Of a stretch of DNA of 64,000 bases, positions 14,893-28,330 are shown piece after piece. Every line of letters begins with the position of its first letter. Position 1 is the stretch's first letter. This DNA is from Ensifer adhaerens (GTDB taxonomy: Bacteria > Pseudomonadota > Alphaproteobacteria > Rhizobiales > Rhizobiaceae), in contig NZ_CP015882.1 in NCBI RefSeq assembly GCF_000697965.2, forward strand, positions 868,001 to 932,000. Reading direction: 5' to 3'. The notes under the pieces were generated by a model that was given only the letters and a program-made list of their open reading frames with translations, had not been told where the DNA came from and did not search any database. A program made the position numbers and the translations under genes.

Positions 14893-17800
14893 CTAAAGCC
14901 GGTCCCGCCTGCGACGCAGCTCGGCGGCGATCATGGCCTCGTCGCGCCGAAGACTGAGGTGTTGCGCGGCCGCCATGCCATCCTTCCACACCGACATTGC
15001 GCCGGCCTCCTTGCCCTCCAGCCAGAGCGATACGCCCGACCACAGCGCGAGTTGAGGTACGCCGATCGGAAAGGCTCGGGCATAACGTTTGAGTTCGCGT
15101 AGCGCTTGGGCCTCCCAGCGCGGCCATTCGTCGTAAGCGTGTGCGAGGCCGGCCTCGCGGCCCCGCAGGAAAACCTCGGCGGCGCCGGAGATGCCGACCA
15201 AAGTGCTGTGGGACGAAGGCCGGCGCATCAATTTGACCAGTTGCAAGGTTTCGGCGGCCGCCTGGACACTCTCCGCATGCCGCCCCGTGCGCGCGAGCGC
15301 CAGCGCCAGCGCACCCTTCGCCGAGATCTGCGCGGCCAGATCGACCGACCCGAGCATCGCCGAGCCGATCAGCCGGAGAATGTCGACGGCCTCGCGCGGC
15401 TGATCCGTGTGAAGCACGCACAACGCCTTGCACCGCAACGCCCAGATTTCCTGCTGGATATTGCCGGCATTCTGCGCGCGCGAGAGCAGGGCGGTCGCCG
15501 TTGGTTCGAGCGCGGCCTGCTCGCCACGGTAGTAGAGCGACCAGAAGCGCATGCCCTGGGCATTGCACCACCGCAATTGGTCGCCGGCTCGAAGGCAGAA
15601 CTGCTGGCCCTGTTCCAGCCTTGCGTCCACCCCCGCCCATTCTCCGCGTCCGAGCTGCCAGAGCGCGTCGAGATTGCAGACATGCGCATGGATCGCGGTG
15701 TCTGAAAGCTCGGTCGCGATCCGCTCCGCCCTTTCCATGAAATAGCGGCACCCGGAGCGCCAGCCCATCATCCCGAAGCCGCAGCCGAGCTGCGAGGCGG
15801 CGACGGCCATTTCGATCGTCCGTCCGGTCCGTTCGGCGCGCGCCACCGCGCCAACGAGATTGCACATTCCACGGGTGAAGCGCAGCTCGAAGTAGTCAAC
15901 CAGCGCTGCCTGGTTCAGGCACCGCGCCATTTCCCTCTCCCAGGACAGCCGGTCCTCGCGGCGGGCAAGCTTCGCTGTTTCCGGCAGCATCTGCTGCGCC
16001 GCAAGCCGCAAGCTGCGAGCGGCAAGCCGTACCAGCGTCGCAGACGAAGAGACGGGAACCGGTTGGCCGGCCGCTTTCAGCGCATTCCTGACGGCAATGC
16101 CCTGCGCGTGAATGTCGCCGCGACTGTAGTGCGCTTCGGCAAGTTTGCGCCGCCAGCGAACCGCCTGCAGTCGCTGTTCGGGCGTCCAGTCCTGCGGCTT
16201 CGGCTCGTGCGCCATGCAAATGCCGAGAAAGAACTCGACCTCGCGGAAGGCGCCGACCTGCAAAGCCCTCGCGGCCGCCAGGTCCGCGTATTTCACGACC
16301 TTCTCCTTGTTGTCCGCCGCCTCGAAATGCTGAACGAGAACCGCCAGATCTCCACCCATTGCTTCAATGCGGCTGCGCTCCAGCCAGTGGGCGAGCGATG
16401 CGTGGAGGCGGCTGCGCAGGTCGCCCGGCATCGATCCGTAGACCACATCGCGCGTCTGGTCGTGACGGAATTCGTAGCTTCCGGCTTGGCCGAGCCGGCG
16501 CACCAGATGGGCATCGACCAGCCTTTCGACGGCGGAGCCGAGCCCTTCCGCATTCAGCTCTTCTTTCAGCAATGCCTCCAGCTCGGCAAAGGTGAACGAG
16601 CGTCCGATGACGGCCGCCGCTTTGATCACGTCCTGCGATGTCGAATCGAGGCGATCCACTCGCTCTCGGATGACGCGCTCGACTCCCTCGAAATACTGGA
16701 GGTCCTCAAGGGGGCGGATCGAGCGCCAGAGGCCATCGCGCACGGCGATCAAGCCTTCGCTCTTCAGCGTCAGCGCGATCTCCTCGGCAAAGAAGGGATT
16801 GCCTCCGGCAAGGGCGGCGACCCTGCGCGCGAGTTCCTGTTGTGGCGGAACCTCGCCAAGGGTGCGCGAAACGAGTTCGCAAACAGTGCCGTCGTCGAGC
16901 TCTTCGAGTTCGAGGATGCGGTAGCGCCGTGCCGGCTCCTCTGTCTCGGTCCCGGCTTCGCCTGCCGCCTCGACCCGTCGTCGCAATTGCTTCAGATCCT
17001 CGGGCACCTCTTCGGAGCGCACGCAGAGCACGAGCAGCAGCGAAGGCACAGAACCGAGCACCCATTCGACCAGCCGCCAGGAGGCGGAATCCAGCCACTG
17101 GCTGTCTTCGAGTACGAGGGCGAACGGCCGTGGCGCCAAGACGCCGAGGATATCGCCGAGGAGGCGCATGGTCGCATCGGCGCGGTGGGCACCTTCCAGG
17201 TGGCGCGTTCCCTCGTTCTGCTCGATCTCGATCGCCAGCAGGTCGTTAAGAAGGGGCAGGCGGTCTGCGATCCACGGCGCCGTGCGGATGCGCGCGGTAA
17301 TGCTTTCGAGCAGGACGAGGCCATCGCTTTCGGCGGGCAATCCCAAAAGCGTTTCAAGAACGCGTCGCCAGGCCAGAAGCGAGCTTCGCCGGTCGTCCCG
17401 TTCGGCGAGCGTCACGGCAATCGCCACTCCCGCGGCGTGAAGATTCTCGGTAAAGGTGGCAGCCAGCCTGCTCTTGCCGATGCCGGGTTCGCCCAGGATG
17501 ACGACAAGACGGCTCGAACCGCCGCGCGTCTCCTCGAAAGCATGCTGCAGGAAAGCGAGTTCCCGCTCTCGGCCAATCAGCGTTGCCGCAGACAGGGCCC
17601 GCGACTTCGGCTCAAGAGGCCGAAAGACCGGCGCCACGTCGCCAAGTCCCGCCAGCTGGACGGTTCCGCGTTGCTCGAAATCGAAGGACGCCCGGCTTGC
17701 CCTTTCGGTCGGCGCATCGCACAGCACATCATTGGAGACGGTCGTGACGAGGCGCGCGGCGCGATTGACCGGCGTGCCGAGAACCATCAGCTGTCGCCGG

Positions 17801-18906
17801 CGCGTGCTGCCGACGACTCGAAACAGGGCCTCGCCCGTCGCCACGCCGACCGAGACGGCAAGCCCCATCTCCGTGATATGGCGACCGATGGCGCGGGCGG
17901 CATCCACGGCGCGGGCCGGGTCGTCGCGGTGAAACGTCCCGCGTGTCCCGAAAGCGCAGAGATAAACGAGCCCCTTGTCGTCGAAGAGGAGTTCGCCCGG
18001 AGGGCCGCCGTAGCGGTGCGAAATCGCCTGAAGCGTTGCGCAGAGGTTCTGGTGTCGGACGAGCGCTTGGGCATCTTGGTGTTGCAGACCGATTATCCGG
18101 ACGAAAATGACGGACACTGGTCTGATCTCCGCAAGCGTGTCCAGCCGTGCATCGCGATGGACATTGCCTTCGGCTAAGGCGTTGGGGGATGCGGGTTCGA
18201 TGCCCATCATCGTCGGCGAGGGGCCAAGCAACTCCTGAAGCTGCATCGGCAGGAATGCGACGAGCCATTCGTGCGCGATGTGCGGATGCGCTGGAGCAGC
18301 GGCGGGCGCGCGCGCATTTGCCTCGCCATCGGTCAGGGCATTTGCCGCCTCTGGTGACAGAACGACTTCCCAGCGATGGGCAAGTGTCTGCGCACTTGCG
18401 GCCTGAACGACGGCATCGCCCCCAGCCACAAGGTTCCAGACCGGCTGGCCGCCGATGGCGGCCGCCCAGAGCTGCCCGGCGCCGATGCCGATATGTAGGG
18501 TAGGTCCGATTTCGCCTGCACCCGGATTTCGCTGCTCGCGGCTCTCCTTGCAGATCGCTTCGGCGCACTCGGCCGCACTCTTGACCGCGCGCGCCAGACC
18601 CGTTTCGTCGGCGGGCCAATAGGCCAGAAGCGAGTCACCCGCAAAGAGGAGGACTTCGCCGCCCCGGTCGCAGACATGGTCGGCGCAACGCGCGTAGGAA
18701 ATACTGAGCAGCTTCGGGATCTGCACCAGCCCTTCCTTGCCGCGCCGCGCCAGTTGCTCGACGAGGGCCGTATAGCGCGAGACGTCGACAAAGATCACGG
18801 CGGCCGGAAACTCTACCGCCGACGGCCGCTCTCCGTGAGAGCCGTGAAGCCGGCCAAGCAAGTTCAGCGGCAAAAACCCTTCGAGCGATTTTGCGATCGT
18901 CTCCAT
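14893..18906 (-). CDS. Soluble-adenylyl-cyclase-like protein: two cyclase domains, NTPase, TPR-like tail
   Basis: A 1337-aa cytosolic protein with the layout of soluble adenylyl cyclases (ADCY10 type). Cyclase domain 1 (about residues 33-190) keeps both metal-binding aspartates, D41 (FVDVSRYT) and D91 (FAGDSLLAYW). Domain 2 (about 262-425) has arginine (R270 in FVRIIG) where a metal aspartate usually sits but keeps N381 and R385 (PVNRAARL), the expected role for the partner domain. A P-loop NTPase follows with Walker A GEPGIGKS (472-479) and Walker B LVLEDSQWLDS, then about 500 residues of helical TPR-like repeats. Likely makes cAMP or acts as a signalling ATPase. The residues that select adenine in animal enzymes appear changed (K to E, T to M by eye), so nucleotide preference is open. 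Its stop lies 8 bases beyond the convergent Nudix gene. Confidence 0.88.
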   Translation of the reverse strand: METIAKSLEGFLPLNLLGRLHGSHGERPSAVEFPAAVIFVDVSRYTALVEQLARRGKEGLVQIPKLLSISYARCADHVCDRGGEVLLFAGDSLLAYWPADETGLARAVKSAAECAEAICKESREQRNPGAGEIGPTLHIGIGAGQLWAAAIGGQPVWNLVAGGDAVVQAASAQTLAHRWEVVLSPEAANALTDGEANARAPAAAPAHPHIAHEWLVAFLPMQLQELLGPSPTMMGIEPASPNALAEGNVHRDARLDTLAEIRPVSVIFVRIIGLQHQDAQALVRHQNLCATLQAISHRYGGPPGELLFDDKGLVYLCAFGTRGTFHRDDPARAVDAARAIGRHITEMGLAVSVGVATGEALFRVVGSTRRRQLMVLGTPVNRAARLVTTVSNDVLCDAPTERASRASFDFEQRGTVQLAGLGDVAPVFRPLEPKSRALSAATLIGRERELAFLQHAFEETRGGSSRLVVILGEPGIGKSRLAATFTENLHAAGVAIAVTLAERDDRRSSLLAWRRVLETLLGLPAESDGLVLLESITARIRTAPWIADRLPLLNDLLAIEIEQNEGTRHLEGAHRADATMRLLGDILGVLAPRPFALVLEDSQWLDSASWRLVEWVLGSVPSLLLVLCVRSEEVPEDLKQLRRRVEAAGEAGTETEEPARRYRILELEELDDGTVCELVSRTLGEVPPQQELARRVAALAGGNPFFAEEIALTLKSEGLIAVRDGLWRSIRPLEDLQYFEGVERVIRERVDRLDSTSQDVIKAAAVIGRSFTFAELEALLKEELNAEGLGSAVERLVDAHLVRRLGQAGSYEFRHDQTRDVVYGSMPGDLRSRLHASLAHWLERSRIEAMGGDLAVLVQHFEAADNKEKVVKYADLAAARALQVGAFREVEFFLGICMAHEPKPQDWTPEQRLQAVRWRRKLAEAHYSRGDIHAQGIAVRNALKAAGQPVPVSSSATLVRLAARSLRLAAQQMLPETAKLARREDRLSWEREMARCLNQAALVDYFELRFTRGMCNLVGAVARAERTGRTIEMAVAASQLGCGFGMMGWRSGCRYFMERAERIATELSDTAIHAHVCNLDALWQLGRGEWAGVDARLEQGQQFCLRAGDQLRWCNAQGMRFWSLYYRGEQAALEPTATALLSRAQNAGNIQQEIWALRCKALCVLHTDQPREAVDILRLIGSAMLGSVDLAAQISAKGALALALARTGRHAESVQAAAETLQLVKLMRRPSSHSTLVGISGAAEVFLRGREAGLAHAYDEWPRWEAQALRELKRYARAFPIGVPQLALWSGVSLWLEGKEAGAMSVWKDGMAAAQHLSLRRDEAMIAAELRRRRDRL

Positions 18907-19252
18907 GTTTCCTTCGCGCGGTGATTGATCACGAAATGCGCGAAACAGGGGCCATCTTCGCGCAGAAGTGCATTTATCCCTCGCCGATTTGCTGACTCTC
19001 GCATATTATTTAGCAATCGCTAAGAGGGCTAGCCGACTTCGATCGATCGGCTTTGGCAGAAACCGCGCAGGTTTCGGATTTTTGCATTCTTCCCGGATGT
19101 CGATGCCCCCTGTTGGGGATCACCGAAAGACATGAGCCATCGCGGCTCGCACACCGAGTTCAGGCGTCAGACGCATCTTATGGAGAGCGTTATGTCCGAT
19201 TGGAGCTACGGATACCCGCACCGTGCCCGAGACCGACGTCCCGGAGGCGACC
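18907..19252. other. Divergent intergenic region between the two giant genes
   Basis: 346 bases without a convincing gene. It must contain promoters for both large genes. It includes an AT-rich patch near 18995-19023 with an inverted repeat TTAGC-AATC-GCTAA (19010-19023), a candidate regulator site. No known consensus was recognised. Confidence 0.5.
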
Positions 19253-22200
19253 ATGGCCAGCATTGACTTCGACAACACCTCGCACACCGCGTGGATTTCC
19301 CAGGGTTTCGAAAGGCTGGTCGACCGGGTTCGGAAGACGCCGGCGGCGCTCCACTTTGATGTTCTGGTCGTCGGCAGTGGCTATGGCGGCGCAATCGCTG
19401 CCGCCACCATGGCCGGCCGCACGAAGGGAGGCGCTCCGATCAAGGTCGGGGTGCTCGAGCGGGGCAAGGAGTATCTGCCGGGCGCGTTTCCAACAGGTCT
19501 TGCCGAACTGCCTCGCCATATCCGCCGCGATCGCAACAAGGAAGGGCTGGTCGACGTGCGGATCGGCCCGGAGGTCGTCACGGTGGTCGCAAACGGCGTC
19601 GGCGGCGGTTCGCTGATCAATGCCGGCGTCATGGAAGTTCCCGACGAGAGCGTGTTTCACACGCGCTGGCCCGACGACCTCAAGGACCTGACGACCTGGC
19701 GGCAGTATTATGATCGTGCGGGCGAGCTTCTGGGCGGCACCGCAAACGGCGTCCCCAACAGCATCTCGAAACATCCCGACGGCATTCCCCAGAAACACAA
19801 GTCCTTCCGCAGCATCGCGTCGACGGGTTTTCGCGAGGCAGCGATTACGGTCGCGATGACCGACACGGTGAGCTCGGGAAATGTCAGGCTCAATAAATGC
19901 GTGCGCTGCGGCGACTGCGCGACGGGCTGCAATTTCGGCGCAAAGAACTCGCTCGACGTCAACCTGCTCGTGACGGCGCTGCGCAACGAGGCAGAGATCT
20001 TCAGCGGCGCGACCGTGCTCAGCGTCAAGCCGGACGGCGGCAACTGGATCGTCGATTGCGTCTACACCGACGCGGCCCTGCGCGCACGCGACGGCGACGT
20101 GCTGCAGGTGCGCGCAGGCAAGGTCGTGCTGGCGGCGGGCACGCTCGGCTCGTTCGAAATCCTGAAGCGCTCACAGGCCAAAGGCCTCAGCCTCTCCGTG
20201 CATTTCGGCAACCATTGCTCGACCAATGGCGACATGCTGGTGACCGATTATGCCACGTCAAATCCGGTCAATACCGTCTCGGACGAGGCCGTGCAGCCCT
20301 CCAAGCGTGCGATCGGACCCACCATCACCGGCGTGCTCGATCTTCGAAAAACGGCAGGTGTTCTGATCGAGGAACTCTCCGTTCCAGCTGGCTTGCGCCT
20401 CGCCTTCACCGAGATCTTTGCAACGCTCAACACGCTTCACGGGCTCGACCGGTTCGACTGGTCGACGCATACGCGGGGCTTTCCGGACGACGACGCCTAT
20501 GTGGCGCCGACCGGCAGGATCGAACATTCCGCCGTCTATGCCGTCATGGCCGATGACGGCGCCGCCGGGCGTATGGAACTGGATGAAACGGCTTCCGACA
20601 GCGATGACGGCACGGCGCGGATGCGCTGGGACGATCTGCCGTCCCTGCCGATCTTCGACACCGAGGTTGAGGCGCTGGCACGGCTGGCGAAGAATACGGG
20701 CGGGCGCGTCATCGCCAATCCCGTCTGGAAGCTCCTGCCGGCCAGCCTGAACTGGCTGCTGCAAAACAAGCGCGGTCCGCTCACCACCGTGCATCCGCTC
20801 GGTGGCTGCGTGATGGGCAACACCGGCGCGACGGGCGTCGTCGATCATTTGGGGCGTGTTTTCAAATCGGAGCTCCCGAACGACTTCCATAGTGGCCTCG
20901 TGGTCCTCGACGGCTCGATTATCCCGACGGCGCTTGGCACCAATCCGGCGCTCACCATAGCGGCAGTGGCCCTGCGCGCCTCGGAGACACTCGCGGCCGC
21001 CTGGAATTATGTCGCCCCGGCCCCTGCGGCGCCCGGCCTAGCTTTGGTCCGCCCGGTGTTTCGTGAAACCGATGCCGCTGCACCTGCCCCTGATACCGAT
21101 GCCGAGATCATCGAGCGCCTTGCCGGCCGGGTCAGGTTTTCAGCGCCCGGGACGGCCTCTGAAACGAGAGTTGTCGAGCTCACACTGCGTTTCGAGCCGA
21201 AGGCGCTGGCCGATTTGGCGCCAAGCAATGGTGGCGATGGAACCCTTGAGGTCGCGACCGACGCCTCCGTGCCGTTGGCCCGCAGCATGATCCGAATTTT
21301 TCCGGCGGATCAGTGGGACAATCTCCATCAGACATGGGCGCCCGCCGGTCTGGTGGAGCAGAAGCTCCAGGCGATCGCCGTCTTTACGGCGCCCCTGACC
21401 GGCAGCCTGCGGGTCCTCGAGCGCCAGTCGACGTGGGTCGGCGGCAGGATCTGGCGTGCCGGCAAGGCATGGGTGCTCAACCGAGGCCTGCGCGACAGCT
21501 ATCAGGCGATCGTCGACGGCGACGGTGGGCCCGGCTTCTTTGAGCGCGTCCGCTCAGGTCTTGCCATCGCCAGCCGGTCCGGCGAGATCCGCGCCTTCGT
21601 CTATGATCTAAAGGTCGGCGCGCCGGACCCGATCACCGGTGGCATCTCGCTTGCGGGCGATCGTATCGTCGGCACCAAGCGCTTCACCTATGATCGGCGT
21701 TCCAATCCCTGGCGTCAGCTCATGGAAGTCGCGCTGGAGCAATTTCCGGGGTTGGAGGCAGCGTCCGGCGGGCGCGTGCTGACGCTCGACCTTGACTATC
21801 TCGCCCGCATCGGCGTGCCGCTCGTGCGCATCACGGAACAGCGTGACGGCGTCGCCGCGATCGGAGCGCTCCTGACTTTCCTCGGGTATTTTCTCCGGCT
21901 GCTTTTGGGAATGCATATCTGGAGTTTCCGTGCACCCGATAAAGACAAGGACCCGGCAAACGACGCGGTGGATTTCCGCCCGCCGGCGCAGTTGAAGATC
22001 AAGGGCGGCGGCACGGTCGCGGCGCAACGACAGACGCTCGTCGTCGGAACGAGCAAGCCTCAACTCGGCGGCCCGCCGGTTGTCGGGAAAGTACTGCTAA
22101 CCCGCTATCCCTATCCGGGCACGACGAAGCGGCCGCTGGTGATGATCCACGGATACAGCGCCGGCGGGACGACCTTTGCCCACCACGCCGTCAATCCCAA

Positions 22201-24955
22201 CTTCGCCAGCCATTTCTGGAAGACGGGGCGTGATGTCTGGATCGCCGACCTCAGAACCAGCCCGGCGCACCCGACCGCAAGTGCGGCCTGGAGCTTCGAC
22301 GAAATCGGCAAGGAAGACGTGCCCTTGGTGTTGCGGACGATCGCCACACAGACCGGTGTGCCGAAACTCGACGTCATCGCCCATTGCATGGGCACGATGG
22401 TTTTCAGCATCGCCACACTGGAGGGTAAGATCCAGGACCTCGTTGACCGGGTGGCCTTCACGCAGGTCGGTCCGCTGGTGGTCTTTACGCCTGCCAACAT
22501 CTTCCGCGCCTATGCGGTGCGTTACCTTCTCGGCTTCCTGCCCGACAGCTACAGCTTCAATCCGGATAAGCCGACGCTCGCCGATGACCTTTGGGACCGC
22601 GTGCTTTCGACGCTTCCTTACCCGGTCGAGGAGTTCGACGTGGAAAATCCGATCTGGCCATGGAAGCGGACGCCGTGGACAAGAACCCGGCACCGGATGG
22701 ACGCGCTCTACGGACGCGACTTCAACGTCGCCAACATGGAGCCCGAAATGCTGCGCTTCATCAACGAGCATTTCGGCGCGCTCAGCCTCAATACGGTCTC
22801 CACGACGGTGCATTTCGTGCGTAATGCCATGCTCACCGACTTCCGGGGGCAAAACCGACTGGTGTCACGAGAAGTCCTGCAGGATAAGTGGAAGTTCCCC
22901 ACCTTCAGCGTCCATGGATCGGGCAACGGTCTCACGGATCCTGCCACCGTCGACCGCATGCGCCGCGTCTTCGACGATGCAGGTCGTGTCTACCTGGAAC
23001 CCTATCTCAACCCCGGCGCCGGTCACCAGGACGCCCTTATCGGGACGACCCGGCATGCGACCTTGCAGAAGATCGAAGCTTTCCTCGACCAGAACATCCA
23101 ACGCCAGCCTGTGGCCGCAGACACCGAGATGACGGCCTACCCGCCCTGGATCGGGCCGATCATTACCGAGGAGAACGGCGAGCTGACCATTCGCCTTGGC
23201 ACGCTGCCGTCGATCCGCCAGACCGAGGGCGTGATCATGCTGCGCGTGCTGGTAAACGGCGACGACATCCAGCGCCCGGATGGCCAGCCCTGGGATCTGC
23301 CTTACATCGTCAGCCACATGATGGTCTACTGGTCCCCGGCGTTGCGCGACAACCACTGGGATGCGTTCAAGGCGCCGCTCCCGACATCAATGCCGGGGTA
23401 TGATCCGAACTTCCCGGGAAACGCGTTGCTCGTCTTGCTTGCCTACGCGGAAGACAAGCTTCTGCCGCCGTTCATTGAGGAGACATACTACGCGCTCGCC
23501 AAGAATGGCGTCGTCTATCGGGCGCTGCTTCGCGAGTCGAACGAGAACCCGGAGAGGGTGCTGGAGGTACTTCCCTATCAGCGTTTCGAGCGGATCTCGC
23601 AGGCCGCCTCGCGGATGATGGATGCGCCGCAGCCCGACATCAATCCGGGCAAGGCTGTGAAATTTTCGCCGAACCGCCTCGTCTACAAGGACACGACCCC
23701 GACGACCAACCTGACGGTCGGCGCCGCTCCGCAGACGGCGACGCCTGCAAGTTCCTCGATGAACCTCAACTTCCTTATGGGAGCGTCGGTTCTGGAAAAT
23801 CTGGTCGAGCAGGACCGGGCAATGATGGACGGCGTTATCCCCTACGATTCCCCGCTCGCTCCTCCTGTTCAGCCTTCGCCCGCCGGCACCAGCTTCATCC
23901 TGGCTTCGTGCCAGTACCCGGCCGGGTTCATCGACAGGAAGGTTGCCTATCGCTCCTTCGCCGAGGTCGCTGACAGAATAGGGGCGGGGGTGGGTATCCA
24001 GCCGAAGTTCGCGCTCCTCGTCGGCGATCAGGTCTATGTGGATCCGACCGCAGGGCTCTACGATCCGGCCGCGAGCGATGACAGGTATCGCCTCCCTTAC
24101 GAAGCTTGGTTGCAGGAACGCAGCGTGCGCGAGGTCCTGCGCCGCATACCATCGTTCATGCTGCTCGACGACCATGAGATCGACGACAACTGGGAGCCGC
24201 TCGCCTCTCCGAACGATATCGATACGAATGCCAAGCTGAAGAAGGAGGGTTTCGCGGCCTTCGAGAAATACCAGCGTGGAGTGGATCCCAAGCTGAAGAC
24301 GTTCGACTACGAGGGCTTCCATTTCTTCCTGCTCGACACGCGCAGCGAAAGGACGCACCGCAAGATCGGCGCCGGGCTTGCCAATGCGACCCTGTTCAAG
24401 ACGGGCGTCGGCGAGACGATGAGCGACCTGGAGACGTGGCTTTTAAAAAATGGCCCGAAGTTCATAGCGTCGCCATCGATGTTTCTCCCGCGTCATCGCC
24501 GGGCGATCCAGCGCGATGCCAGCCTCAGCCCGGACAACCTGAGTGCGCTGCGTTCCGATGGCTGGGATGGCTATCCGAACAGTCTGCGTGATGTTCTCGG
24601 CGCCATCGCCGCCGGAAAGATCAAGCATGTCGTGCTCCTCTCCGGTGATGAACACCGGGGCTGCATTGCAACGGCGCTTCTGACGGAAATGGACGGCACG
24701 CCGATCACGACCGTGCATTCGATCCACACCGCGGCAATGTATGCGCCTTATCCTTTTGCAAACGGGATCGACGAGGATATCGTCGAGCAGGAGACGTTCG
24801 AGTTCGACTACAAGGCCAAGCGCTATCACTGCATCGTCGACGCGACCCGGCCGGCTCCCGGCGACGGTGCGACTTTTCTCCACGTCCGGCAGGATGGCGC
24901 CGATTGGAAGCTCGACTGCGAATATGCGGGGACTGTGCAGACGCTCACGCTCTGA
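19253..24955 (+). CDS. Giant fusion: GMC oxidoreductase + alpha/beta hydrolase + PhoD-like phosphatase
   Basis: A single 1900-aa chain with three enzyme regions. (1) About residues 30-590: cholesterol-oxidase-like GMC flavoprotein with FAD motif VVGSGYGGAIAA, a four-cysteine cluster C216, C219, C222, C226 (CVRCGDCATGC) and the C-terminal GTNPALTIAA. (2) About 690-1280: a linking region and an alpha/beta hydrolase with oxyanion segment MIHGYSAGG and nucleophile elbow AHCMG, where C1045 replaces serine. (3) About 1545-1900: PhoD-type metallophosphatase with GDQVY, LLDDHEIDDNW and LSGDEHRGC. ATG 19253 has GGAGG five bases upstream; a GTG at 19223 is less likely. No signal peptide is seen, so it is probably cytosolic. 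The set suggests stepwise attack on a hydroxylated, esterified, perhaps phosphorylated lipid or sterol; substrate is unknown. Confidence 0.9.
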   Translation: MASIDFDNTSHTAWISQGFERLVDRVRKTPAALHFDVLVVGSGYGGAIAAATMAGRTKGGAPIKVGVLERGKEYLPGAFPTGLAELPRHIRRDRNKEGLVDVRIGPEVVTVVANGVGGGSLINAGVMEVPDESVFHTRWPDDLKDLTTWRQYYDRAGELLGGTANGVPNSISKHPDGIPQKHKSFRSIASTGFREAAITVAMTDTVSSGNVRLNKCVRCGDCATGCNFGAKNSLDVNLLVTALRNEAEIFSGATVLSVKPDGGNWIVDCVYTDAALRARDGDVLQVRAGKVVLAAGTLGSFEILKRSQAKGLSLSVHFGNHCSTNGDMLVTDYATSNPVNTVSDEAVQPSKRAIGPTITGVLDLRKTAGVLIEELSVPAGLRLAFTEIFATLNTLHGLDRFDWSTHTRGFPDDDAYVAPTGRIEHSAVYAVMADDGAAGRMELDETASDSDDGTARMRWDDLPSLPIFDTEVEALARLAKNTGGRVIANPVWKLLPASLNWLLQNKRGPLTTVHPLGGCVMGNTGATGVVDHLGRVFKSELPNDFHSGLVVLDGSIIPTALGTNPALTIAAVALRASETLAAAWNYVAPAPAAPGLALVRPVFRETDAAAPAPDTDAEIIERLAGRVRFSAPGTASETRVVELTLRFEPKALADLAPSNGGDGTLEVATDASVPLARSMIRIFPADQWDNLHQTWAPAGLVEQKLQAIAVFTAPLTGSLRVLERQSTWVGGRIWRAGKAWVLNRGLRDSYQAIVDGDGGPGFFERVRSGLAIASRSGEIRAFVYDLKVGAPDPITGGISLAGDRIVGTKRFTYDRRSNPWRQLMEVALEQFPGLEAASGGRVLTLDLDYLARIGVPLVRITEQRDGVAAIGALLTFLGYFLRLLLGMHIWSFRAPDKDKDPANDAVDFRPPAQLKIKGGGTVAAQRQTLVVGTSKPQLGGPPVVGKVLLTRYPYPGTTKRPLVMIHGYSAGGTTFAHHAVNPNFASHFWKTGRDVWIADLRTSPAHPTASAAWSFDEIGKEDVPLVLRTIATQTGVPKLDVIAHCMGTMVFSIATLEGKIQDLVDRVAFTQVGPLVVFTPANIFRAYAVRYLLGFLPDSYSFNPDKPTLADDLWDRVLSTLPYPVEEFDVENPIWPWKRTPWTRTRHRMDALYGRDFNVANMEPEMLRFINEHFGALSLNTVSTTVHFVRNAMLTDFRGQNRLVSREVLQDKWKFPTFSVHGSGNGLTDPATVDRMRRVFDDAGRVYLEPYLNPGAGHQDALIGTTRHATLQKIEAFLDQNIQRQPVAADTEMTAYPPWIGPIITEENGELTIRLGTLPSIRQTEGVIMLRVLVNGDDIQRPDGQPWDLPYIVSHMMVYWSPALRDNHWDAFKAPLPTSMPGYDPNFPGNALLVLLAYAEDKLLPPFIEETYYALAKNGVVYRALLRESNENPERVLEVLPYQRFERISQAASRMMDAPQPDINPGKAVKFSPNRLVYKDTTPTTNLTVGAAPQTATPASSSMNLNFLMGASVLENLVEQDRAMMDGVIPYDSPLAPPVQPSPAGTSFILASCQYPAGFIDRKVAYRSFAEVADRIGAGVGIQPKFALLVGDQVYVDPTAGLYDPAASDDRYRLPYEAWLQERSVREVLRRIPSFMLLDDHEIDDNWEPLASPNDIDTNAKLKKEGFAAFEKYQRGVDPKLKTFDYEGFHFFLLDTRSERTHRKIGAGLANATLFKTGVGETMSDLETWLLKNGPKFIASPSMFLPRHRRAIQRDASLSPDNLSALRSDGWDGYPNSLRDVLGAIAAGKIKHVVLLSGDEHRGCIATALLTEMDGTPITTVHSIHTAAMYAPYPFANGIDEDIVEQETFEFDYKAKRYHCIVDATRPAPGDGATFLHVRQDGADWKLDCEYAGTVQTLTL

Positions 24956-25244
24956 TCCCATCTCCTGGCGCGTTACTGGTTCAAATCCTTACGGGAAGGC
25001 TCGAGCGGGCCCGTTCACGAGGACGTGTCCGGGTGATCCGCCATGCCGTTTTGTCGCCCGATGCCGTCGCTTGACAGTCGGTTCAAAATAAACTTAACAT
25101 GTTAATGGATTGAAGCTTTCCGATGAGGAGCAAAGGGAAGTTTCAAGCGACCAGGGAGATCTGCCCGCCGGATGGCCGTGAAGGATCAGGTGCGTGCATG
25201 CGATGTTCGCCGCGCGTGAATGTGGGGTCGACAGGGAGGAACCT

Positions 25245-26300
25245 ATGAAACTGAGCAGACGGAATTTGATGAAGACCGGCGGCGCTCTGCTTGCAGCGCC
25301 CTTCGTTCTGAAAATCGGTGCGGCGCGCGCCCAGGAAACAGTCACGCTGAAGCTGCACCATTTCCTGCCGCCGGCATCCAACGTTCATCAGCGGCTGTTG
25401 ACGCCATGGGCGAAATTGCTGGCAGAACAAAGCGGCGGTGCGCTGAAGGTCGACATCTTCCCGGCCATGCAACTCGGCGGAAAGCCGCCGCAGCTCTACG
25501 ATCAGGCGTCGAACGGCGTCGTCGATATCGTCTGGACCTTGCCCGGCAACACGCCCGGACGTTTCCCGTCCACGGAAGTGTTCGAACTGCCATTCGTCGC
25601 CGCCAAGGAGGCGACCGTCAACGCGCAAGCCTGCCAGGAATATGGCCAGACGCACGTACTGAAGGAAACTGGCGATACCCAGCTCTTGTGCTTCTGGGCG
25701 CATGATCAGGGCCTGATCCACACCAATAAGGAAGTGAAGACCGGAGCGGACCTCGCCGGGCTGAAGCTTCGCAATCCGACGCGCCTTGCCGGTGAGGCGC
25801 TGGCGGCACTGGGGGCGACGCCGGTCGGCATGCCCATTCCGCAGGTGCCCGAAGCACTGGCCCAGCGGTCGATCGACGGCTGCGTGCTCCCGTGGGAAGT
25901 GGTTCCCTCGATCAAGGTGAACGAGCTCACCAAGTTCCATACCGAAATCCCGGGCTCGCCGACGCTCTATACCGCAACTTTCTTCCTGGCGATGAACAAG
26001 GGCAAGTACGACGGGTTGCCGGCCGACCTCAAGGCCGTGCTGGACGCCAACAGCGGCATGGCCTTCGCCAAGAAGGCCGGCGAGATGTGGGACAGCGTCG
26101 GTGCCGAAGTGCGCGCGGCAATCGAGACATCCGGAGAAGGAACAATCAGCACGATCAGCGAGGACGAAAAGGCGAAGTGGGTGGAGGCAACCAGACCCGT
26201 CCACGACAAGTGGATCGAGGACATGAAGGCCAAGGACCTCGACGGCAAGGCGCTGATCGCCACGGCGCAGGCGCTTGTGCAGAAATATTCGAGCGCCTGA
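25245..26300 (+). CDS. TRAP transporter substrate-binding protein (DctP family)
   Basis: A 351-aa periplasmic solute receptor. The N-terminus MKLSRRNLMKTGG with a hydrophobic stretch and ARAQ cleavage site suggests export, possibly through Tat (two arginines). The mature part has LKLHHFLPPASNVHQRLLTPWAKLL and the LRNPTRLAGEALAALGATPV segment in which the conserved arginine binds the ligand carboxylate in DctP proteins. GGGAGGA lies before ATG 25245. It works with the two downstream membrane genes for sodium-driven uptake of an organic acid. Which acid is not shown. Confidence 0.93.
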   Translation: MKLSRRNLMKTGGALLAAPFVLKIGAARAQETVTLKLHHFLPPASNVHQRLLTPWAKLLAEQSGGALKVDIFPAMQLGGKPPQLYDQASNGVVDIVWTLPGNTPGRFPSTEVFELPFVAAKEATVNAQACQEYGQTHVLKETGDTQLLCFWAHDQGLIHTNKEVKTGADLAGLKLRNPTRLAGEALAALGATPVGMPIPQVPEALAQRSIDGCVLPWEVVPSIKVNELTKFHTEIPGSPTLYTATFFLAMNKGKYDGLPADLKAVLDANSGMAFAKKAGEMWDSVGAEVRAAIETSGEGTISTISEDEKAKWVEATRPVHDKWIEDMKAKDLDGKALIATAQALVQKYSSA

Positions 26301-26351
26301 GCGCACTGCCGGCCGTACTCGCCTGAACGTGGCGCCTGAACGCGCCGCTGC

Positions 26352-26891
26352 ATGAACCAACAGCTCGAGGCCTCAACAATGGAAGACGTAGGATACGAGG
26401 ACGCGGTGAGGGTGCCGCGCCGCAGGGAAGTCGAACGCCTCGCGGCCGGTTTGGCACTGATCGGCGGCACGCTTCTTTGCCTTGCGGCGGGATTGGTCAC
26501 CGTCAGCGTGCTGGGCCGATGGCTGTTCAATCGGCCGGTGCCGGCCGACTACGAGCTGGTGGAGGTGGCGGTCGGCGTCGCCGCCTTCTCCTTTCTCGCA
26601 TACACACAGGCCCGCAACGGCCATATTGCCGTCGATACCTTCACGTTGGCTCTCCCCGCACGCGTCACGCGGGTCATCGACGGCCTTTGGGACCTGCTTT
26701 TGGCCGGCTGCCTGGCGTTTTTTGCCTGGGGTCTGTTTACCGGTGGCCTGGAGGCGAGGGGATACGGGACGACGCTGATCCAGCTGCCCTGGCCGATCTG
26801 GCCAGTCTATCTGACCTGTGCGGCGCTGGCGGCGCTCGCAGCCATCATCGGAGTTTCCGTTTCCCTCTTGAAAATCGGAGGCGGCCGATGA
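26352..26891 (+). CDS. TRAP transporter small permease (DctQ family)
   Basis: A 179-aa membrane protein with four hydrophobic helices (about residues 28-50, 65-85, 105-130, 145-170). The motif LGRWLFNRPVPADYELVEVAVGV and the FAWGLFTGG region are typical DctQ features. It lies between the binding protein and the large permease and overlaps the latter by four bases (ATGA). DctQ and DctM form the membrane unit. The ATG at 26379 is an alternative start. Confidence 0.9.
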   Translation: MNQQLEASTMEDVGYEDAVRVPRRREVERLAAGLALIGGTLLCLAAGLVTVSVLGRWLFNRPVPADYELVEVAVGVAAFSFLAYTQARNGHIAVDTFTLALPARVTRVIDGLWDLLLAGCLAFFAWGLFTGGLEARGYGTTLIQLPWPIWPVYLTCAALAALAAIIGVSVSLLKIGGGR

Positions 26892-28330
26892 GCGGTTTTG
26901 CCATTGCCTTCGTCGGATTCGCAGCCATGCTGCTCTTGATCGCCATCCGGATGCCGATCGCCCTTGCCATGCTTGCGGTGGGCGCTGCCGGTTATGCCTA
27001 TCTCTCTGGCCCGCATGCGCTGGTCTACTATCTGCAGACCAACACCTACAGCCAGTTTGCCAGCTACACGCTTTCCGTCATACCGCTCTTCATCCTGATG
27101 GGCGCGCTTGCCGAGCAATCGGGCATCGCCGCAACGCTCTTTCGCGTCGCCGAGCGAGGCTTCGGACGGTTCAAGGGCGGAATGCCAATGGCGGTCATCG
27201 CCGCCTGCACAGGATTCGGCGCGATCTGCGGCTCGTCGGTCGCAACCACGGCGACCTTCGGGCGTGCGGCCCTGCCGGAACTGCGCCGGGCGCGCGTCGA
27301 TGTCGGTCTTGGCACCGGGACGATTGCCGCCGGTGGCACGCTCGGCATCCTCATTCCCCCATCCGTCATCCTGGTGATCTATGCGATCACCGCCGAGCAG
27401 AATATCGCCAAGCTGTTTCAGGCCGCCCTGGTGCCGGGGCTGCTGGCGGCCGCCTTCTATCTGATCGCGATCGCCGTCGTCGTCCGGCGCAAACCCGATC
27501 TCGCACCGCCGGTCACGGCGACCGAGGCGGTTCGAACCCCCCGTCCTTTCTGGGCGAGGCCCGTAGGGCTGATCATCTTTGCCGGTGGCGCGATCGGCTG
27601 GCTGCTCGGCTCGCTCGGGACGGTAGGGGGCGTATTGCTGGCGATATTCGGCCTGCTGCTGCTGGCTGCGGACTTTGCGATCGTGCCCGCGGCGGCGGTT
27701 GCCGTCACGGTGGTCGGCGGCATCTATGGCGAAGTGTTCACACCGACGGAAGGTGCCGCGGTGGGTGCCGCCGTAACGCTGCTGGTGGGGCTGCTGCAAC
27801 GGACCCTGAGCCTTGGCGCCCTGAAAAACGCCCTGCTGCAGACGGCTGAAACGAGCGGGATGATCTTCCTGATCCTGCTCGGCGCCGAGGTCTTTGGCGC
27901 GTTTCTGGCGCTGACGCAGATGCCGGCGACGCTGGCCTCAATGGTCGGACAGTCGGGTCTACCGCCCTATGTCGTCATTTGCGGAATGCTCGTCACCTAT
28001 CTCGTGCTCGGCGCCGTCATGGACGAGTTGGCGATGATCCTGCTGACGTTGCCGGTCTTCATTCCGATCATCCTGACGCTGGACTTGGGCATGCCGACCG
28101 AGGACGTTGCCATCTGGTTCGGCATTCTCGTGCTCATCGTCGTCGGCATCGGCCTTTCCGCCCCGCCGATCGGCCTCAACGTGTTTATCATCAACAAGCT
28201 GGCGACCGACGTTCCGATCGTTGAGACCTATCGTGGCGTGATGCCATTCGTGATCGCCGACCTCATCAGGCTGGTGATCATCACGCTGTCACCCGGCGTC
28301 GCTCTGGCGCTCGTCCGGTTGTTGAATTGA
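26888..28330 (+). CDS. TRAP transporter large permease (DctM family)
   Basis: A 480-aa inner-membrane transporter subunit with about twelve helices. Recognised by SVIPLFILMGALAEQSG, GFGAICGSSVATTATFGRAALPE, GTIAAGGTLGILIPPSVILVIYAI and the C-terminal APPIGLNVFIINKLA, all typical of DctM. Its ATG at 26888 overlaps the DctQ stop. A more upstream start in the same frame would lie inside DctQ and is rejected. It is the ion-coupled translocation channel of the TRAP system. Confidence 0.93.
   Translation: MSGFAIAFVGFAAMLLLIAIRMPIALAMLAVGAAGYAYLSGPHALVYYLQTNTYSQFASYTLSVIPLFILMGALAEQSGIAATLFRVAERGFGRFKGGMPMAVIAACTGFGAICGSSVATTATFGRAALPELRRARVDVGLGTGTIAAGGTLGILIPPSVILVIYAITAEQNIAKLFQAALVPGLLAAAFYLIAIAVVVRRKPDLAPPVTATEAVRTPRPFWARPVGLIIFAGGAIGWLLGSLGTVGGVLLAIFGLLLLAADFAIVPAAAVAVTVVGGIYGEVFTPTEGAAVGAAVTLLVGLLQRTLSLGALKNALLQTAETSGMIFLILLGAEVFGAFLALTQMPATLASMVGQSGLPPYVVICGMLVTYLVLGAVMDELAMILLTLPVFIPIILTLDLGMPTEDVAIWFGILVLIVVGIGLSAPPIGLNVFIINKLATDVPIVETYRGVMPFVIADLIRLVIITLSPGVALALVRLLN

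Follow-up and report, generated by a model that had tools for sequence, protein, structure and literature searches.

The window analyzed in this study is a 64,000-nucleotide stretch of Ensifer adhaerens DNA (NZ_CP015882.1, positions 868,001 to 932,000); the genome has 7.27 Mb, and the window is part of its contig 3. It contains a gene for an enzyme in which a GMC oxidoreductase, an α/β hydrolase, and a PhoD-like phosphoesterase are joined in one chain, together with a divergently oriented gene for a protein that resembles soluble adenylyl cyclase. The features of the locus are as follows, in window positions.

14893..18906, minus strand: divergent neighbor of 1,337 residues, with soluble-adenylyl-cyclase-like C1 and C2 domains, an AAA_16 ATPase, and a long C-terminal part that appears to be repeat-like
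18907..19252: divergent intergenic region, with the palindrome TTAGCAATCGCTAA at 19010-19023
19253..24955, plus strand: fused enzyme of 1,900 residues, in the order GMC oxidoreductase, linker, Cys-type α/β hydrolase, PRE, PhoD-like phosphoesterase
19352..20998, plus strand: GMC oxidoreductase domain, approximately residues 34-582, from Pfam and the cholesterol oxidase alignment
19898..19930, plus strand: CxxCxxCxxxC motif (C216, C219, C222, C226), predicted 4Fe-4S site
21020..22057, plus strand: linker domain, approximately residues 590-935
22040..23107, plus strand: α/β hydrolase domain, approximately residues 930-1285, similar to gastric and lysosomal acid lipases
22385..22387, plus strand: Cys1045 of AHCMG at the nucleophile position, aligned with the Ser of gastric lipase
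22925..22927, plus strand: Asn1225 at the usual catalytic-acid position by alignment, putative role
23024..23026, plus strand: His1258 at the catalytic His position by alignment, putative role
23120..23887, plus strand: PRE domain, approximately residues 1290-1545
23894..24952, plus strand: PhoD-like domain with Fe/Ca ligand motifs, from Pfam and alignment

Translation of 19253-24955 on the plus strand yields 1,900 residues and a single terminal stop, and frame 1 of the opposite strand contains several stops. A domain search of the protein placed four families above their Pfam gathering scores, i.e., GMC_oxred_N (residues 107-308, 45.7 bits, cut-off 23), GMC_oxred_C (439-573, 49.0 bits, cut-off 24.6), Abhydrolase_1 (961-1242, 33.0 bits, cut-off 25.8), and PhoD (PF09423; 1548-1807, 69.1 bits, cut-off 27). 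Neither the linker (590-935) nor PRE (1290-1545) matched any Pfam family above its cut-off. The whole three-enzyme protein is unbroken in four E. adhaerens plasmid records at 99.4-100% identity, of which the 100% identical one, plasmid unnamedB of E. adhaerens Casida A-T305, may come from the strain of the window itself, and a copy with 90.9% identity is present in Ensifer sp. PDNC004. An earlier note on this DNA had described three normally separate enzyme classes in one uninterrupted frame, and the continuity of the chain is borne out by these records. When the gene was compared with that of locus L022, the dN/dS values were 0.147 for the GMC part, 0.097 for the linker, 0.083 for the hydrolase, 0.209 for PRE, and 0.160 for PhoD; every segment is thus under purifying selection, and no frame break was found in the window gene. 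The comparison with L027 gave 0.158-0.22 in the segments where the ratio was computable, which did not include the hydrolase.

In the GMC oxidoreductase part, the FAD motif G41-S-G-Y-G-G46 and the four cysteines at 216, 219, 222, and 226 are invariant in an eight-row alignment, so that both the FAD site and the four-cysteine cluster named earlier are confirmed as motifs. The cysteines are present in every compared GMC row that has a complete N-terminal half, and the CxxCxxCxxxC pattern is absent from the GMC protein of an Arthrobacter plasmid. The motif is a putative 4Fe-4S site, with the cluster type predicted from the cysteine pattern, and all Fer4 Pfam models scored below their cut-offs on the fused protein. 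His514 in HPLGG and Asn564 in NPALTI, which we take to be the active-site His and Asn of the cholesterol oxidase type, align with cholesterol oxidase motifs. When the whole protein was compared with the PDB, 12 of 15 matches were cholesterol oxidases, which agrees with the relationship suggested at first sight. The score against the NCBIfam cholesterol oxidase equivalog NF058674 was 142.8, where 850 is required.

The elbow of the hydrolase part reads AHC(1045)MG, and the residue at the nucleophile position is therefore Cys, not Ser. Cys1045 aligns with the nucleophile Ser of gastric lipase and is Cys in 24 of 25 aligned homologues (Gly in L075). The column of Asn1225 contains Asn in 24 of the 25 rows (Thr in L024), and His1258 and Asp1260 are conserved in all 25. 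The hydrolase elbow of the earlier note is thus present in the frame, but it is not that of an ordinary Ser hydrolase, since Cys occupies the nucleophile position and Asn the acid position. Structures were predicted as two models, one of the hydrolase including the linker (mean pLDDT 69.3) and one in which the first part of PRE is β-rich and is followed by a low-confidence stretch (mean pLDDT 66.0). The best fold match of the hydrolase model is dog gastric lipase (1k8q; Foldseek E 3.7e-11). Its TM-score is 0.59 on the target and 0.34 on the query, the latter with the linker as part of the model; homoserine O-acetyltransferase ranks second. According to section 2.7 of PMC11878206, the Cys-nucleophile α/β hydrolases dienelactone hydrolase, PhaZ, and PHA synthase have C-D-H triads, and the catalytic acid can shift to strand 6. 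A papain-like Cys-His-Asn triad, a combination that does not appear in that section, is accordingly proposed for this hydrolase group only as a candidate.

In relatives, a linker-type domain occurs as a protein of its own, attached to a patatin, or inserted between the GMC and hydrolase parts. Toward the C-terminus of the patatin, a part at approximately residues 318-534 matches the linker of two-domain GMC-hydrolase proteins and the product of a separate linker gene at locus L078 (46.6% over 191 aa). Comparison of the window linker with this patatin-type linker by hhalign gave E values of 0.001-0.012 at a probability of 3.5-21%, against 0.49-0.88 with reversed columns; runs with "-M 30 -norealign" were discarded because reversed input scored equally. 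These values lend weak support to the suggestion that the window linker is a patatin-type linker domain.

The PhoD part retains the full set of metal motifs that had been noticed in it, and Cys1553, Asp1592, Asp1639, Asp1640, Asp1645, Asn1646, and Asp1799 are invariant in the eight-row alignment. In PMC4223295, the Fe/Ca ligands of Bacillus subtilis PhoD are given as C180, D207, D265, D266, N271, N272, and D436. Asp1639, Asp1640, Asp1645, Asn1646, and Asp1799 align with D265, D266, N271, N272, and D436 of that list; Cys1553 and Asp1592 lie outside the B. subtilis alignment and were assigned by motif. The domain scored 16.3 against the NCBIfam alkaline phosphatase PhoD equivalog NF058638, for which the cut-off is 1000. 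No export signal was seen on reading the fused protein, in which a Rossmann strand starts near residue 36.

Fused orthologues were found in Ensifer, Rhizobium, Bradyrhizobium, Solimonas, and a Burkholderiales metagenome-assembled genome. The fused form is present in 10 of 60 other genomes in a sample of relatives, namely nine of the same genus (including G014, in which it is broken) and G030. Among the 16 genomes of the genus sample, the gene is in one frame in nine and split over two overlapping frames in G014; only 3' remnants are left in G001 and G002, and four genomes have no match. The remnants lie on G001:C2, G002:C4, and NZ_CP098809.1; in G002, the remnant sits immediately next to a 3' fragment of the cyclase gene, the pattern that loss of the central part of the locus would leave. 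In a named collection, the fused order was observed at eight loci (L022-L028 and L030) and an unfused one at L029. L022, L023, L028, L051, and L056 probably duplicate genomes G010, G011, G013, G005, and G014, to judge from identical coordinates or identical lengths of open frames or contigs, so loci are not to be counted as genomes. No other fused copy was found at E<=1e-20 in the class sample (385 genomes) or the phylum sample (398 genomes), which were screened with at most two candidates scored per genome. Within that scope the phosphatase is the rarer addition, as had been supposed. The fused gene is sporadic and seems to have been lost in places.

The same parts occur as neighboring genes in other genomes. 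At L029, a betaproteobacterial metagenome-assembled genome, a 1,442-aa GMC-hydrolase ORF is followed after 16 bases by a 636-aa PhoD ORF, which is preceded by GAGGTGA. At L077 (G489, of the same family as the window genome), a 1,364-aa GMC-hydrolase and a 558-aa PhoD are encoded on one strand, with the cyclase gene divergent as in the window, and at L078 (G153), four closely packed genes of the same orientation encode PhoD, a linker protein of 235 aa, GMC, and hydrolase. The GMC-hydrolase tree (21 rows) unites the 11 PhoD-linked rows other than L030 with support of 100/100 and has L029 and L077 (98/95) beside nine fused rows (91/86). The fused L030 is a long branch between this main group and the two-domain proteins, and it may or may not represent a second independent fusion. 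The PhoD tree (29 rows), in which the program flags long branches, places the 12 GMC-linked PhoD domains, L030 and L078 included, together (97/96) and apart from the 17 others, with L029 and L077 (93/81) again beside the fused rows (94/72). The fused gene resembles an operon condensed into a single frame. The occurrence of the parts as neighboring genes suggests one common pathway and supports the earlier idea that the three enzymes serve one.

Two-domain GMC-hydrolase proteins were found in several lineages, which means that the first two enzymes are not always separate, in contrast to what had been stated of all three. A scan for phosphoesterase motifs at eight such loci found a fitting ORF at two (L053 and L083); a lone DDHE at L080 lies in a 266-aa regulator-type ORF and was excluded. 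The ninth locus, L097, which was scanned by profile only, gave no phosphoesterase match. L097 (5504-16863) is on a Leptospira borgpetersenii plasmid, where a stretch of 17 kb carries genes for the GMC-hydrolase, a hybrid histidine kinase, and a distant relative of the window cyclase (1.8e-26), as well as another GMC ORF. At L096 (11525-22513), on a Rhizobium leguminosarum plasmid, the two-domain gene lies near genes for a CoA-transferase and an iron-containing alcohol dehydrogenase and near phaE and phaC.

A phosphoesterase of a second family also accompanies these genes. In Azospirillum oryzae, the gene directly before that of the GMC-hydrolase encodes a metallophosphoesterase of 604 aa, whose C-terminal part shows hydrophobic stretches on reading. 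Its assignment to PhoD was rejected, since no Pfam match was obtained at 0.001 and Metallophos was below its cut-off (19.5 versus 21.5 bits). A relative of this protein (34% identity) adjoins the GMC genes of G060. The family is present in five of the 398 phylum-sample genomes, all among the 14 that are GMC-positive (hypergeometric p 2.5e-8, not corrected for kinship), and in six of 200 genomes in the family sample of G671, one of them already counted, for a total of 10 carriers. The GMC gene is adjacent in seven carriers (G060, G671, G846, G856, G869, G905, and G942) and lies on another contig in the other three (G037, G554, and G757). Nine plasmid records carry the second phosphoesterase, and adjacency was read in five of them: the GMC gene is adjacent in Azospirillum, Cupriavidus, and Arthrobacter and was not seen beside it in the plasmids of R. 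phaseoli N831 and Mesorhizobium ciceri. The other four records are a second one of R. phaseoli, one of Nonomuraea, and two of Streptomyces. G846, G856, and the Arthrobacter plasmid share a cluster encoding GMC, the metallophosphoesterase, a separate Cys-hydrolase, an ADC-like protein, an Anthrone_oxy-type protein, and a patatin; between G846/G856 and Arthrobacter, the last four of these are 47-55% identical, and the GMC and phosphoesterase proteins are 32-36% identical.

The match of the divergent neighbor to human soluble adenylyl cyclase (E 4.1e-27) spans the two cyclase domains, and Asp41, Asp91, Lys311, Asn381, and Arg385, which we take to be the catalytic positions, are conserved in nine of nine rows. 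Fifteen rhizobial genomes have the enzyme genes, and the cyclase is intact beside them in 10 (G000, G005, G006, G010, G011, R. leguminosarum Tri-43, two Bradyrhizobium, G030, and G489; E<=1e-60 in part) and broken in G013 and G014; it was not found beside the three intact enzyme copies of G003, G004, and G015. The window's own genome, G000, has at another place a second soluble-adenylyl-cyclase-like gene that is 26% identical (G000:C2:1570028-1573870), and a distant cyclase copy is present in 9 of the 16 genus genomes (E<=1e-60). The palindrome in the intergenic region, found once in the window against 0.00 expected, is kept in close relatives and in R. leguminosarum Tri-43; it occurs in 8 of 106 loci, all of which belong to the close E. 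adhaerens group or are L024. A possible 28-codon leader ORF (19180-19266, plus strand) lies upstream of the enzyme start and overlaps it. Short ORFs that end at or over the enzyme start codon were also read in L022, L023, L025, and L028, and their sequences differ between groups.

Downstream of the enzyme gene, TRAP transporter genes (DctP and DctM; 25194-28330, plus strand) are found in the close E. adhaerens group. Among 20 enzyme loci searched, several of them with short flanks, DctP was found only at L001, L003, L004, and L022, all of this group, so the transporter was rejected as a core partner. A TRAP DctM gene also lies near the unfused enzyme genes of L078. Among the scanned neighbors, no metabolic gene was common to the fused loci across lineages, and no sterol catabolism gene was recognized. 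Regulators do recur, i.e., the cyclase in many rhizobia and histidine kinase and LuxR-type genes at L026, L029, and L030. Genes of the two-component or LuxR type lie close to the enzyme genes of Solimonas, L029, and L030.

The reading we prefer, at a probability of about one-half, is that the window encodes a real, selected trifunctional enzyme that arose by stepwise fusion of an older operon and acts in the cytoplasm on one phosphorylated lipid-like alcohol or ester. In this reading, the older operon would have consisted of the phosphoesterase, the GMC oxidoreductase, the linker domain, and the Cys-type hydrolase. That the three activities form a functional unit is very probable, and the strongest argument for one pathway is their recurring company, fused or not and with either phosphoesterase. 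The substrate is probably lipid-like, to judge from the patatin and from the resemblance of the other parts to lipases and cholesterol oxidase, and our best guess is a phosphorylated one. The particular mechanism, to which we give even odds at the most, would be as follows. The PhoD domain, with its Fe/Ca site, would cut the phosphoester of the substrate; the GMC domain would oxidize the alcohol so released with FAD, and a 4Fe-4S cluster may relay the electrons to an acceptor; and in the domain of acid-lipase type, Cys1045 and His1258, perhaps with the aid of Asn1225, would hydrolyze or transfer an acyl group. The enzyme is most likely cytoplasmic, and in many rhizobia its expression is probably tied to the divergent cyclase-like protein. 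More tentatively, these proteins may belong to a hitherto undescribed pathway module of lipid type that combines a phosphoesterase with an Fe-S GMC protein, a mobile linker, and a Cys-His-Asn hydrolase. Its components would be encoded separately in Pseudomonadota and on an Actinomycetota plasmid, in some cases together with patatin and ADC-like proteins, and in rhizobia they would have been condensed stepwise into a single three-site enzyme of 1,900 aa, often next to the soluble-adenylyl-cyclase-like switch.

Other explanations bear on the hydrolase, the fusion, and the substrate. The hydrolase might be an acyltransferase or thioesterase in the style of PHA synthase or dienelactone hydrolase, so that the enzyme builds or releases hydroxyacyl products. 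The Cys of 24 of the 25 homologues, the Cys enzymes listed in section 2.7 of PMC11878206, the second-ranked homoserine O-acetyltransferase, and the CoA-transferase, phaC, and phaE near the R. leguminosarum two-domain gene all favor this explanation; however, the nearest sequence and fold matches are lipases, the Cys enzymes of that section have Asp where the window hydrolase has Asn, and phaC and phaE lie near just one of the loci read, so we regard it as rather unlikely. It is somewhat less likely still that the fusion serves co-expression or scaffolding of enzymes with separate substrates, e.g., in general phosphate and carbon scavenging: the want of a metabolic gene conserved alongside across lineages would fit, whereas the repeated unfused adjacency, the two phosphoesterase families, and the similar trees of the parts argue against it. 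In steryl-ester or sterol metabolism, the hydrolase would free a sterol, the GMC domain would oxidize it, and PhoD would act on a sterol phosphate or phospholipid. The PDB sequence matches, which are cholesterol oxidases and gastric and lysosomal acid (cholesteryl ester) lipases, and the fold matches of the hydrolase agree with such a role; the equivalog score far below 850, the scanned neighbors, and the replacement of the acid-lipase Ser by Cys make it improbable, and cholesterol or a steryl ester, toward which the earlier note had looked for assays, is accordingly disfavored as the substrate. An error of sequencing or assembly, or chance read-through of three genes, is refuted by the single frame in several records and in nine genus genomes and by the selection on all segments; the only point in its favor is the frame break of the relative G014 at about residue 290, and the window itself offers none.

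The enzyme families concerned are known. Among the open-access PMC papers listed by the searches, no title or abstract opening describes this three-domain protein or gene cluster, and the three-part fusion, the operon forms, and the Cys/Asn hydrolase group were not met there. Gene neighborhoods repeatedly group three activities for which that literature gave no assigned pathway, and because the fusion is a single gene to delete, express, and assay, the pathway is directly testable. If true, an active site with Cys and Asn would stand out as unusual within one of the largest enzyme folds, and the four-gene, two-gene, and one-gene forms provide a clear case of stepwise enzyme fusion.

Among known systems, GMC enzymes of the cholesterol oxidase type (PF00732/PF05199; 1coy and 1b4v) share with the window protein the FAD-binding fold by sequence and the His and Asn motifs, whereas the window protein has additional fused domains and the CxxCxxCxxxC motif and scores far under the equivalog cut-off. 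Gastric and lysosomal acid lipases (1k8q, 1hlg, and 6v7n) match the hydrolase domain best in sequence and fold, although their nucleophile Ser is replaced by Cys and their acid by Asn. The two-domain GMC-α/β-hydrolases (e.g., WP_149201188.1 of Azospirillum, annotated as "alpha/beta fold hydrolase") resemble the fused enzyme in the GMC type, in the position of a linker, and in a Cys-type hydrolase whose His and Asn columns agree; in contrast to it, they have no PhoD domain, are approximately 1,150 aa long, and form a separate group in the tree. ADCY10 (4cm2) has tandem C1 and C2 domains, as does the window neighbor, in which the Asp, Lys, Asn, and Arg positions are kept; the neighbor is bacterial and is without the Lys that precedes FAGD in ADCY10, which is presumably the bicarbonate site. 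Dienelactone hydrolase, PhaZ, and PHA synthase, as treated in section 2.7 of PMC11878206, have Cys at the elbow like the window hydrolase, but the group of the latter has Asn in the usual acid column. B. subtilis PhoD (2yeq; PMC4223295) aligns with the window domain at the metal ligands D265, D266, N272, and D436, while its N271 is Asp1645 in the window protein, where the PhoD-like domain forms the C-terminal piece of a fusion.
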